Below are positions 10,749-32,351 of a stretch of DNA of 33,546 nucleotides, in pieces. The notes under the pieces were generated by a model. It had not been told where the DNA came from. It did no database searches and saw only the letters and a list, made by a program, of their open reading frames with translations. This DNA is from a virus: IMG/VR virus record IMGVR_UViG_3300049893_000788, positions 1-33,546 of that record. One strand, 5' to 3'. Position numbers and translations under genes: made by a program. How positions within the stretch are numbered: the first letter of the stretch is position 1; every line of letters begins with the position of its first letter.

Positions 10749-11066
10749 TTACATAACCTCTTCATCTGGATTATCTACTCTATTTACATCTGTATAAGTA
10801 GGATAATAACTATCAGTAAAGTCTCTCATTCCGAATCTACTTCTAAATAACTCTACTATGTTCTCTGCTGTTAAAAAACCTAAGCCTAAAAGTACGATTG
10901 TAGCATAGATAATAACATACTCTTTTTGTATAGACATTCCATTAATTAAATGTACAACAAATCCTATATTAAAAAGAACAAATGCTATGAACACAGTAAG
11001 CTTTCTTGCTGATACTTTTCCCTTTCTTTCAAAGGATTGTAGTAACCATACTAAGAAATTATTCAT
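10749..11066 (-). CDS. Small membrane protein, holin candidate, 105 aa
   Basis: Two predicted membrane segments (about residues 24-43, TVFIAFVLFNIGFVVHLING, and 51-68, YVIIYATIVLLGLGFLT), a basic N-terminus (SFERKGKVSARK) and a polar acidic C-terminus of about 35 residues. It overlaps the 3' end of the endolysin gene by 4 bases, so both are translated from one message. Small size, two membrane helices and linkage to a lysozyme suggest a holin or a spanin-like accessory. A second two-helix protein sits upstream of the lysozyme, so which one is the holin cannot be decided by sequence alone. Confidence 0.65.
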   Translation of the reverse strand: MNNFLVWLLQSFERKGKVSARKLTVFIAFVLFNIGFVVHLINGMSIQKEYVIIYATIVLLGLGFLTAENIVELFRSRFGMRDFTDSYYPTYTDVNRVDNPDEEVM

Positions 11067-11512
11067 GGTGTAAAATATAATTTTGATTCAATTTGTCGTC
11101 TTTTAATTAATCCATTAATAACTTTTCCTCCACCTCTAACCCACTTCATAAATTGATTAGCTATTTCAGGATTATCAGGATTTTTATTTATAAGACGTAG
11201 TAAAGTGGATTTTCTAAAGTTTGTTACTCCTACATTATAAGCAAAGCTTGTTAATGCATCAAATTGATTCTGAGATATATGTGGAATAACTAAACTTGTT
11301 ACAGCTTTTTCATAAGTATGAACCATGTTACTTAAAAGTTGCTCTGCCCATTCTTCTGAAATAGGCGCATCATTCATAGTAACCTTAGTACCATTTGTAT
11401 AATATGTAGCTCCATACCCAATAGTAGGAACTCCCGCAGGACAGAGGTAAGGTTTTGCAGAAAAACCTTCAAACTTTTTAATTAAGTCTAAACCTTTTTG
11501 ACTTATTTTCAT
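11063..11512 (-). CDS. Endolysin, GH24 lysozyme, 149 aa
   Basis: T4/P21-type phage lysozyme that cleaves the MurNAc-GlcNAc bond of peptidoglycan to release progeny. The N-terminal active-site block reads KKFEGFSAKPYLCPAGVPTIGYG with E15, C24 and T30 in the E-x8-(D/C)-x5-T triad; Cys in place of Asp is normal in a subset of the family. Conserved Q-F-D-A-L-x-S-F-A-Y-N-V-G follows at about 102-114 and a C-terminal RR-Q motif. Full family length. No signal peptide or SAR anchor, so it needs a holin to leave the cytoplasm, consistent with the flanking membrane proteins. Starts 2 bases after the stop of the upstream membrane-protein gene. Confidence 0.95.
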   Translation of the reverse strand: MKISQKGLDLIKKFEGFSAKPYLCPAGVPTIGYGATYYTNGTKVTMNDAPISEEWAEQLLSNMVHTYEKAVTSLVIPHISQNQFDALTSFAYNVGVTNFRKSTLLRLINKNPDNPEIANQFMKWVRGGGKVINGLIKRRQIESKLYFTP

Positions 11513-11760: not shown

Positions 11761-12420
11761 TTAAATGTCTTTTGTTATAATATCATATTTTGAATTACAA
11801 CCGCACTGATCACATAGTTCTAGAGTTTGCTGAATTATATCAGTCATTTCATCTTCTGTAAGACAAGTAGTAAAGTTATAAGGGGGATTAATAGTTCTTA
11901 CTGCTCTAGCTCTTCTACCAGCTCCTCCAGGAGTTTTGTTTAAATAAGTACTTAAACCTGTAAGCATATTAATCACATAAGCTTGGCTATTATTAAGTGG
12001 ATTAGAATCTAATCCATAATAATAGCTAGTAGGACTTGCTGAAAATCCACCTATTGTAGAATACATAGTTTGTATAACAACTAATTCTTCAGCAGTAGGC
12101 AATCTCCAACCATCTCCTATACTAAAAGCATCATTTGTATAATTAGTCCAAGAGTTATTTGTAACAGTCCCACTATCATAAAATAGATCTGTAGGATAAA
12201 CTTCAAATGTTACATTATATTGAGCAGGAATATCATAAACAGTATTATAATATTTCTTAAGAATATTTACTAATGCTAATATGTAACGTACATTTTTATA
12301 TGTAGTAAACCTATTAGGTTTAGTAAACATTTCTTCCTTTAGTCCTTTATAGGCTAAATCAGCTGCACAGCATTGTGCATTATTTATAATAGTTTCAAAC
12401 TCTGTTTTAACCCAAGCCAT
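11761..12420 (-). CDS. Virion-associated protein with Lcl/Fib_succ-like lectin domain, 219 aa
   Basis: Residues about 103-177 (DGWRLPTAEEL, then GGFSASPTSYYYGLD, NNSQAYVINM, and a closing RRARAVRT) match the pattern of the Lcl-C-terminal / DUF1566 / Fibrobacter-paralogous domain, a C-type-lectin-like fold common in surface adhesins of Bacteroidota. The N-terminal 60 residues are helical with a CC pair (AQCCAADLAYKGL) and the C-terminus carries LCDQCGCN. It is separated by 1 base from the neighbouring 217-aa Cys-rich gene, so the two probably act together, for example as a receptor-binding or virion-decoration pair. This fold is also used by diversity-generating retroelement targets, but no reverse transcriptase or template repeat is visible here. 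Domain call moderate; binding target unknown. Confidence 0.7.
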   Translation of the reverse strand: MAWVKTEFETIINNAQCCAADLAYKGLKEEMFTKPNRFTTYKNVRYILALVNILKKYYNTVYDIPAQYNVTFEVYPTDLFYDSGTVTNNSWTNYTNDAFSIGDGWRLPTAEELVVIQTMYSTIGGFSASPTSYYYGLDSNPLNNSQAYVINMLTGLSTYLNKTPGGAGRRARAVRTINPPYNFTTCLTEDEMTDIIQQTLELCDQCGCNSKYDIITKDI

Positions 12421-29773: not shown

Positions 29774-29804
29774 CAAAGATAGTTGCAATTTATATTACTA
29801 GCAA
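29774..29804 (-). promoter_or_regulatory. Near-leaderless promoter of packaging operon
   Basis: Minus strand: TTG (29804-29802, part of TTTTTTTTG), 20 bases, then TATCTTTG (29781-29774), an exact TAnnTTTG. The ATG is at 29769, 5 bases downstream of the box, about where transcription should start, so the RNA likely begins at or within a few bases of the start codon. It overlaps the T-run of the upstream terminator. Confidence 0.65.
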
Positions 29805-29810
29805 AAAAAA

Positions 29811-29837
29811 TAGCCTAACTCATTGAGAATTAGGCTA
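29811..29837 (-). terminator. Terminator after the secreted-protein cassette
   Basis: Perfect 8-bp inverted repeat TAGCCTAA / TTAGGCTA with an 11-base loop. On the minus strand it is followed by eight T bases (29803-29810 as A on the plus strand). It closes the 31.8-29.9 kb transcription unit, 24 bases past the stop of the 403-aa gene. Works in both directions because of the 3' plus-strand T-rich flank. Confidence 0.85.
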
Positions 29838-29860
29838 ATTATTTTTTTAGAGGTAATTTT

Positions 29861-31072
29861 TTAGTTATTTGTAATGATTTTCTTCTCTGTTGAACCATCA
29901 TTATACCTGTAAATCAGCAATTTATTAGGTATTTCTGAACTAGGATTACCATAAATATCAGTAATACTTACAACTACTCTAGCTGTAGGTATAGGAGTAG
30001 TAAAAGCTCCTGTAATCCAAGCACTACCATAAGTACCTGTTGAATTACACTCCTTTCTAAACTGATACACATATGTAGTATTAGCTGCTAAAGGATTAAT
30101 AGTATATTGATTAACTGTATCCCCTACTATCTTAGTAGTCCAAGCTGCAGCAGTAGACTTTTTATACTGTATTTTATATCTAACTCCACAGCTATCATCT
30201 GACCAATTAAATCTATTAGAAGTAGCAGTTAAACTATCTAAAGAATAAGCAGGTTGAGTACACTCGCATAAAGTAGTAAAGTACTTTATTGTAGAGTAAG
30301 CAGATAATGTAGTGCCATTAATAGAAGCTATTGCATATTCATAGTTAGTTGAGTAAGTAAGTAAGTAAATAGCTTTAGTTGCTGTATCAGGAAGAGTAAT
30401 ATACTTCCATGTAGCAGCACCTACTGCTCTATACATAATCTTATATCCTGTAGCACATGTATTTTTAACCCAATTAATAGTAACAGAAGTACCTTTTGGT
30501 ACAGATACAATACTAGTAGGTGCTTTAAAACATTCATTAATAAGTATGCCTACTTTATAAACTGAATCTCCTGAAGTACCTCCATTATTATTCGCAGCCA
30601 TCAATGCTCCACTCATCTTTACTTGACCACTTCCTAATGCAGGTGCTACCCAATTCCATGACCATGATGAACTTGAGTTACCACTTGTAGTATGTGTAAT
30701 GTATTTAGTACCAGTAATTTTTGTTTTGGTTGAATTGGTAATAACCATTGTACCTTTATAATTCCCTACTGAATCTTGAGGACTAGCTTGAAAACCAAAT
30801 CTTACATAAGTAGGTTTATTTACTGTAGCTGTAAATGTGTAAGTTGTTCCTGGTACATATCCTGTTGATGGGATATTACTAGTAATTTTAGCAATACTAG
30901 TGTCTGCTATTACAGCAGTACCTGAGTGACATCCACTTGTAGCACAAGTTCTAAAGTTAGTAGCTTTATCATAAGCATATCCTGAAGGTGCTCCATCAGG
31001 AGAGCTAATGATACTGTGAGTTAATCCTAAAGTGAATAGGATGATTGCAATAAATGTAAGTGTGTGTTTCAT
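29861..31072 (-). CDS. Secreted Reeler/anchor-V-like protein with FnIII domains and T9SS-like tail, 403 aa
   Basis: Signal peptide at residues 1-23 (KHTLTFIAIILFTLGLTHS). Residues 28-50 (APSGYAYDKATNFRTCATSGCHSG) give C43-x4-C48-H49, a motif of the 'choice-of-anchor V' / Reeler-like domain seen in Bacteroidota secreted proteins, and also a CX4CH haem-c-like motif. Two FnIII-like domains follow (about 179-268 and 269-360), each with W and Y-x-I positions and Cys pairs. The C-terminus (VVVSITDIYGNPSSE, KLLIYRYNDGSTEKKI) fits a type-IX-secretion sorting end ('DxxGR ... IYxYxDGxxxKkI'). This is a host-type protein in a phage. It follows the CxxCH lipoprotein by 7 bases and precedes a terminator. 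Likely to be exported in infected cells. Confidence 0.75.
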   Translation of the reverse strand: MKHTLTFIAIILFTLGLTHSIISSPDGAPSGYAYDKATNFRTCATSGCHSGTAVIADTSIAKITSNIPSTGYVPGTTYTFTATVNKPTYVRFGFQASPQDSVGNYKGTMVITNSTKTKITGTKYITHTTSGNSSSSWSWNWVAPALGSGQVKMSGALMAANNNGGTSGDSVYKVGILINECFKAPTSIVSVPKGTSVTINWVKNTCATGYKIMYRAVGAATWKYITLPDTATKAIYLLTYSTNYEYAIASINGTTLSAYSTIKYFTTLCECTQPAYSLDSLTATSNRFNWSDDSCGVRYKIQYKKSTAAAWTTKIVGDTVNQYTINPLAANTTYVYQFRKECNSTGTYGSAWITGAFTTPIPTARVVVSITDIYGNPSSEIPNKLLIYRYNDGSTEKKIITNN

Positions 31073-31079
31073 AACTTAA

Positions 31080-31409
31080 TTAATAAGGAGTGTGTCCATT
31101 ATAATACCATCTTCTTAAAGTAATTAAATCACAAGTATCCATTCCACTTGGAGGCATATCATGTAAATAAATTACTCTTTTAAAAAAACTACCATCTTCA
31201 CAAGCTGCATTTAACTTATCATACACCAAATATTCTTGATGACAAGCTTTACAATTCTTAGAAATGATAGGTTTAATATCAGCTACATAGCTAATATTCT
31301 TTTTTCCACAAGGAGTAATTGCATCTTTCTCCTCTTCATGTTTACAACTTACTAAGAATAGACTTAGTAATAGTCCTAATAAAAATAATATACGTAATTT
31401 CATGGGCAT
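31080..31409 (-). CDS. Lipoprotein with haem-c CxxCH motif, 109 aa
   Basis: N-terminal lipobox LVSC (residues 19-22) after a hydrophobic signal (RILFLLGLLLSLFLVS), so a predicted outer- or inner-membrane lipoprotein. The mature part has C53-K-A-C56-H57, a c-type haem attachment motif, followed by a possible axial Met (M85 in DMPPSG), and a closing RRWYYNGHTP typical of the small cytochrome-c-like lipoproteins of Bacteroidota ('DIxPIxxxxCxxCH ... MPPxG ... W...G'). The start could also be Met3, which gives a cleaner signal. Linked by 7 bases to the T9SS-tail protein. If haem is attached by the host Ccm/Ccs system it would be a phage-encoded monohaem cytochrome; this is inference. Confidence 0.75.
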   Translation of the reverse strand: MPMKLRILFLLGLLLSLFLVSCKHEEEKDAITPCGKKNISYVADIKPIISKNCKACHQEYLVYDKLNAACEDGSFFKRVIYLHDMPPSGMDTCDLITLRRWYYNGHTPY

Positions 31410-31418
31410 AATTTTTAG

Positions 31419-31450
31419 CTAAAATAACTATTAGTCTCTAAAATACCAAA
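31419..31450 (-). promoter_or_regulatory. Possible second promoter for lipoprotein gene
   Basis: Minus strand: TTTG (31450-31447), 20 bases, TATTTTAG (31426-31419). The spacing is right but the -7 box ends TTAG, not TTTG. It would place a start site just above ATG 31409, letting the two genes be read without the long leader. Weak. Confidence 0.3.
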
Positions 31451-31814
31451 TAGTTATAATTGAACACACCTATAGCCCTGCGGAAATGGGATTTTTCCAG
31501 CCTGTCTTCATTCAACATACCTTGGTTTAGCTCGTCTGAGTAGAGTTATCTACTTTTACCTCCAGTATGGGCAATCACAATCTCCCCATAGCCTTTTAAA
31601 AAACATACTGTTTTCTAAACCTTGTGTATATCAGGGTACTTCACCTCTATTTGAGGGTTTATTGCCCCTAGGAGAGTCTAACCATACATGCTAGGTGGCA
31701 GCATTGACCATTAGACTAGTCCTATATTCTGCTTTAGAGAGAGGCCTTACGGGACCTCTTTAATTCAACTTTAGGAAATTGCAAAACTAACTAAGTATGA
31801 ACTCTAAAAAATCA
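31440..31814 (-). ncRNA. Structured leader/ncRNA candidate (no coding)
   Basis: No open frame of useful length in about 400 bases between a good promoter (31821-31850) and the lipoprotein gene. Several local helices are visible: TAGGA/TCCTA (31669-31673 with 31720-31724) continuing into AGTCTAA/TTAGACT (31675-31681 with 31711-31717) and ATGCT/AGCAT (31688-31692 with 31700-31704), a stacked three-part hairpin; TATGGG/CCCATA (31566-31571 with 31585-31590); AGTAGA/TCTACT (31539-31544 with 31549-31554); and AGAGG/CCTCT (31740-31744 with 31755-31759). This points to a folded 5' leader (riboswitch-like) or an independent RNA. I do not recognise a known class. Confidence 0.55.
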
Positions 31815-31820
31815 TCTTTA

Positions 31821-31850
31821 CAAATATAAACTAATATTTTTTAAAAACAA
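31821..31850 (-). promoter_or_regulatory. Promoter for leftward leader RNA and secreted cassette
   Basis: Minus strand: TTG (31850-31848), 19 bases, TATATTTG (31828-31821), an exact Bacteroidota TAnnTTTG with correct spacing. The expected start is at about 31814. It is the clearest promoter in the divergent gap and points to the structured leader. Confidence 0.72.
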
Positions 31851-32135: not shown

Positions 32136-32351
32136 ATGATTTTACAACTAGACCCTATGATTCCCATATTTTCCATAGAACACAACATGGAAGGATATGC
32201 CTTTTTAGTCATAGACTATTCACAAGAGCATGACTTGCTTTATACTTGTGCCCTAGACAATGGTGAGATTTGGACCATTAATAACAAGGACCTAAGATTC
32301 TGCTATAACAGATCTTTAGATAGAAAAAAAGGTCCCCTTTCAGAGACCTAA
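32136..32351 (+). CDS. Small phage protein, 71 aa, rightward
   Basis: First gene of the rightward arm. The sequence (PMIPIFSIEHNMEGYAFLVIDYSQEHDLLYTCALDNGEIWTINNKDLRF) follows a pattern I recall in small Bacteroidota-phage proteins: a Pro/Ile start, an acidic beta middle ending D-N-G-E-x-W, then 'NxxLR' and a basic C-terminus. No enzyme motif or membrane segment. Function unknown; the early-arm position suggests a host-takeover or regulatory role. The last codons overlap a terminator hairpin. Confidence 0.65.
   Translation: MILQLDPMIPIFSIEHNMEGYAFLVIDYSQEHDLLYTCALDNGEIWTINNKDLRFCYNRSLDRKKGPLSET

Follow-up and report, generated by a model that had tools for sequence, protein, structure and literature searches.

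The stretch of DNA analysed here (33,546 nucleotides, hereafter the window) belongs to a crAss-like phage and carries a transcription unit in which two host-type genes, ORF1 and ORF2, now sit between a structured phage RNA and its terminator, the phage RNA unit having most likely come first. Both genes encode predicted exported proteins with haem-type motifs, and ORF2 has been exchanged between phages that are otherwise unrelated. Taken together, this suggests that the phage may remodel the surface or the redox state of the infected cell, as had been proposed in a first-pass annotation of the same DNA. In a PHROG search the terminase, portal and capsid proteins, all of the crAss type, match phrog_6681, phrog_6547 and phrog_11589, which places the window in the Crassvirales; its best named relative is Cellulophaga phage phi14:2, with a terminase identity of 34%. 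Elsewhere in the window (11761–12420), a protein with a stretch that by eye is lectin-type or DUF1566-like (DGWRLPTAEEL...) is a possible receptor-binding part.

The elements of the cassette lie in one orientation on the minus strand in the order promoter, noncoding RNA, ORF1, ORF2 and terminator (Table 1), as first annotated, and the coordinates of the two genes, which are separated by 7 bases, were confirmed. A mismatch at the borders would have pointed to a chimeric assembly. This was rejected because gene order across both cassette borders is identical in the window and in L002, an independent contig; the left border is also kept in two further contigs (L006 and L009).

Table 1. Features of the RNA unit and its gene cargo, by position in the window
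Feature	Position	Strand	Basis or remarks
Bacteroidota-type promoter, TTG-N19-TATATTTG	31821..31850	-	motif match and conservation before the RNA
Structured RNA ('leader')	31445..31765	-	alignments A5 and A7, covariation; occurs without the genes in related phages
RNA 5' domain used for covariance model R1	31633..31762	-	34 pairs, 12 changed on both sides
ORF1 (109 aa), lipoprotein with LVSC lipobox (Cys22)	31080..31409	-	related to a Bacteroidota monohaem c-type cytochrome family
ORF1 haem motif, C53-K-A-C56-H57 (CKACH)	31239..31253	-	invariant Cys/Cys/His
ORF2 (403 aa), choice-of-anchor V protein with export signal and two FN3 domains	29861..31072	-	NF041895
Choice-of-anchor V (Reeler-like) domain, ORF2 residues 15-172	30557..31030	-	NF041895
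ORF2 haem-type motif, C43-ATSG-C48-H49 (CX4CH; CATSGCH)	30926..30946	-	invariant Cys/Cys/His
Two FN3 domains, ORF2 residues ~184-350	30023..30523	-	Pfam fn3, PDB FN3 matches, confident AlphaFold2 strands
Variable C-terminal tail of ORF2, ending ..YxYxDGSTxK	29864..29995	-	sorting-tail-like; no T9SS profile match
Intrinsic terminator	29811..29837	-	corresponds to the terminator that the RNA has in relatives
Promoter-like site, TTG-N20-TATCTTTG	29774..29804	-	after the cassette terminator, before the next operon

The promoter had been described as strong. It is present, and TATATTTG is kept at the equivalent place before the RNA in five relatives (L002, L012, L014, L016 and L048), but the count of the whole pattern in the window (three matches against 0.99 expected) is weak by itself. 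The terminator was confirmed: it is kept in L002 and L006 and, with slightly altered sequence, in L009, L012, L016 and L048. Downstream of it, a second promoter-like site, whose TATCTTTG is kept in L002, L006 and L009, is followed by the next phage operon.

The noncoding stretch before ORF1 had been annotated as a structured leader, and comparative analysis has upheld the structure. In an alignment of the 5' domain, 95.3% of the 34 pairs are kept and 12 show compensatory changes on both sides, the aligned copies amounting to only about three or four independent clades; in a control in which the partners were slid along the alignment, the number of both-side-changed pairs fell to 0–2. Covariance model R1 recovers all aligned copies at 134–151 bits, those used in building the model matching by construction. 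These comparative results supersede the single-sequence folding of the leader (z = -1.56). No Rfam family exceeded its gathering score for the RNA, permissive thresholds giving chance terminator-like matches only, and a search for the 5' domain found none in phi14:2 or in the L003, L004, L005, L007 and L009 records. L009 retains no more than a diverged 3' half (480–815; local score 62 against a shuffle maximum of 56); this precedes an ORF1 that is frameshifted, perhaps through sequencing errors, and ORF2 is lacking there.

What did not hold is the idea of a mere leader. In relatives that are further removed but have the same genes next to the site (L011–L016 and L048), the promoter, the RNA and a like terminator are present with neither ORF1 nor ORF2, and the RNA unit is therefore most likely older than its cargo. 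The same relatives tell against the RNA being a cis-acting, riboswitch-like leader that controls ORF1 and ORF2; it does lie upstream of the genes in one transcription unit in the window, in L002 and apparently in L009, but a unit that exists without these genes makes such control very improbable, and it was disfavoured. The RNA is instead a phage RNA of conserved structure that has a promoter and a terminator to itself and is matched to no known family. Two small genes were noted in its neighbourhood. A 71-aa gene beside the RNA (window 32136–32351) has the opposite orientation to the late genes in the window and L002 and lies on the late-gene strand in L012, L015, L016 and L048, which suggests a local inversion. 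Just past the RNA terminator in L016 (5478–5690), a 70-aa ORF with a membrane-span-like stretch is another cargo near the same spot.

Export signals had been assigned to both gene products, and both assignments were borne out. ORF1 combines its lipobox with a CXXCH motif and a plausible axial ligand, the sequence features of a c-type cytochrome; the Cys, Cys and His residues and an MPP at residues 85–87, likely to supply the axial Met, are invariant in the three phage copies (window, L002 and L006). None of the curated cytochrome c profiles, Pfam included, scored over its cut-off with ORF1 (PccH, E 0.14; cytochro_C551, E 0.001, below cut-off), and the protein is placed in a Bacteroidota lipoprotein family rather than in any named class of cytochromes. 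The lipobox Cys is followed by an acidic run (CKHEEEKD in the window, CKHKDEEE in L002), and outward exposure of ORF1 on the outer membrane is plausible because this run resembles a lipoprotein export signal of the Bacteroidota (PMC5080379). AlphaFold2 gave a usable model for neither ORF1 nor the haem domain of ORF2.

ORF2 matches the choice-of-anchor V profile NF041895 at E 3.4e-23 (82.3 bits against a curated cut-off of 42), as do the L003–L006 copies over the same cut-off, and a host homologue of its domain matches Pfam Reeler (PF02014). The haem-type motif, with Cys, Cys and His invariant in seven phage proteins, and the surrounding haem domain form the most conserved part of the protein. 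In host members CX2CH and CX4CH interchange, which is what haem c would predict. Over its N-terminal 180 aa, ORF2 shares up to 52% identity with host proteins, and its N-terminal hydrophobic signal corresponds to theirs. It thus resembles host choice-of-anchor V proteins in domain, haem-type motif and export signal; in most sampled host members, however, the C terminus is a T9SS or similar domain, whereas phage ORF2 has a pair of FN3 domains and a short tail of variable sequence. The tail had been annotated as a T9SS tail. The sorting profiles TIGR04183 and PF18962 match the tails of host homologues but not the ORF2 tails of the window or the other phages, and T9SS cargo by profile was rejected, the tail being kept as a lead only. 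A dN/dS of 0.09–0.28 indicates purifying selection for function in ORF2. A spanin pair was also rejected, ORF2 being no spanin and a lysozyme-like gene lying at 11063–11512.

The host-type character claimed for both products was strengthened by the bacterial genomes. In whole-genome searches started from a cytochrome-bearing relative, the ORF2 domain was found in 251 of 395 sampled Bacteroidia genomes (best identity 52%) and ORF1 relatives in 165 of the 395 (best identity 35–38%), those examined carrying CX2CH or CX4CH; a first scan of genome contigs with phage-specific ORF2 patterns had given no match. Comparison of match positions, confirmed by reading the ORFs, placed the two families next to each other in at least six Bacteroidota genomes (G043, G408, G458, G544, G607 and G715), so that the phage pair mirrors a host pair. 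Genes for YceI and/or a DUF5777 outer-membrane barrel lie beside the host pair in four loci, called by Pfam in L075, L081 and L083 and by resemblance in L077. In a second host arrangement (L078–L080, gene names from a Pfam scan of L078), a DUF5777/cytochrome cluster occurs with a ferredoxin-TPR protein and a cbb3-type cytochrome c; an anchor-V protein and a large protein with a probable sorting tail are also present there, with regulator-like and hemerythrin-like genes seen by eye nearby. Neither YceI nor DUF5777 was found in the phage records, which are fragments, and the DUF5777 search gave no signal in any control.

ORF2 is present on seven contigs including the window, and its distribution shows that it is not a cassette gene specific to crAss-like phages. 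In L003, L004, L005 and L007 it has 66–93% identity in phages unrelated to that of the window: L003 shares some crAss-like tail proteins, L004 and L007 have another terminase and a tape-measure-like gene, and L005 has replication genes, and apart from ORF2 the available stretches share little or nothing with the window. In these phages ORF2 has no cassette of its own and no ORF1 nearby, and it must therefore work alone or use the host's partner. A short basic protein (RPG.HSKK...SK.Y type) is encoded directly after ORF2 in L003, L004 and L007, phages of differing type. Among close relatives, dS between the window and L006 is 1.02 for ORF2 against 0.23–0.66 for seven neighbouring genes; the window ORF2 groups with L003 instead, and a tree uniting the ORF2 of window, L002 and L006, a group known beforehand from the backbone, was rejected (AU test, p 0.002). 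Judged from these sequence comparisons, an ORF2 allele is swapped between nearly identical phage backbones. A tblastn search of the INPHARED phages with the ORF1 and ORF2 proteins gave no match.

The function that we tentatively favour, to which we give somewhat less than an even chance, is a change that the two exported haem proteins bring about in a redox complex on the infected cell's surface. A phage unit comprising a host-type promoter, a structured RNA and a terminator would have taken up two host-type genes between RNA and terminator, and host RNA polymerase would read ORF1 and ORF2 from the promoter of the unit. Both products would be exported and then loaded with haem in the periplasm, giving two c-type haem proteins: ORF1, lipidated at Cys22, would be tethered to the outer membrane, probably on its outer face, and ORF2, with its Reeler-like haem domain and two FN3 domains, would also reach the outer membrane. 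There the phage copies may attach to the host pair of the surface redox complex, take its place or outcompete it, and the complex would be kept running or altered during infection, with a possible benefit.

The main competing explanation, given that ORF2 moves about as a gene for competition would, is superinfection exclusion or receptor masking. Here ORF2 (and ORF1) would cover the cell surface, or obstruct an outer-membrane barrel, and so keep other phages from adsorbing, with the haem domain retained chiefly for docking. That ORF2 passes between unrelated phages, whether or not ORF1 accompanies it, and is swapped on near-identical backbones is a pattern of competition, and the added FN3 domains and variable tail of ORF2 fit it as well; exclusion is also the role proposed for the T9SS cargo, likewise variable, that Cryophage carries (Bellas et al. 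2020, PMC7468147). We nevertheless consider it rather unlikely, as plain masking has no need of the haem motif and domain that are the best conserved part of ORF2, and host homologues lie among electron-transfer genes in some loci.

It is less likely still that ORF2 is a virion component, a tail or head decoration with FN3 domains. Its place among structural genes in L003, L004 and L007 and the match of its FN3 part to phrog_4971, a major tail protein, would suit such a role, to which are opposed an N-terminal signal common to exported host proteins, a haem-type motif loadable only in the periplasm, and the lack of ORF2 at the site in close relatives that share the virion type. The rarity of ORF2 is all that speaks for a chimeric assembly or passive gene debris, and with L002 bridging both borders and dN/dS well under 1 the chance of either is negligible, debris being rejected like the chimera. 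Returning to the surface redox complex, a broader version may be entertained but is unlikely. In it, the RNA unit of this crAss-like lineage would be a docking site for exchangeable cargo destined for export (the haem pair, just ORF1, or nothing), and several unrelated types of Bacteroidota phage would pass around a Reeler-like haem protein able to take over the DUF5777-linked surface redox complex of the infected cell.

Phage morons, known from lambdoid phages, have their own promoter and terminator and are missing in close relatives. The cassette was first described as a moron, and the likeness stands in so far as it is a separate transcription unit of host-type exported genes, with its own promoter (position kept in five relatives), its own terminator and a cargo missing in relatives with the same flanks; it differs in that promoter and terminator are those of a phage RNA which also occurs without the cargo and is most likely older than it, and in that ORF2 elsewhere sits in ordinary phage operons. 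Cryophage is likewise a Bacteroidetes phage whose exported proteins are of host type and differ from one near-identical genome to the next (Bellas et al. 2020, PMC7468147). There the cargo, with T9SS domains, comprises an endoglucanase, a glycoside hydrolase and a PA14 protein, whereas the cassette here encodes haem-type proteins without a T9SS profile match. Haem or electron-transfer genes are also carried by other phages, reads of cbb3 cytochrome c oxidase occurring in Indian Ocean viromes (PMC3474794); those are inner-membrane oxidase subunits, in contrast to ORF1 and ORF2, which are predicted outer-membrane or surface haem proteins of another family. Morons, phage-borne electron-transport genes and exported phage cargo are thus kinds already known. 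New, in the data searched, are the family, its host-operon pairing, the exchange across phages and an RNA unit that holds genes.

The RNA is a find separate from the gene cargo. Choice-of-anchor V proteins are common in Bacteroidia, yet no paper on them or on DUF5777 was found in the open-access literature, and their exchange between phages marks them as proteins worth study. If the favoured function is true, some phages would change the outer-surface redox chemistry or the coat of infected Bacteroidota by means of haem proteins like the host's own pair.
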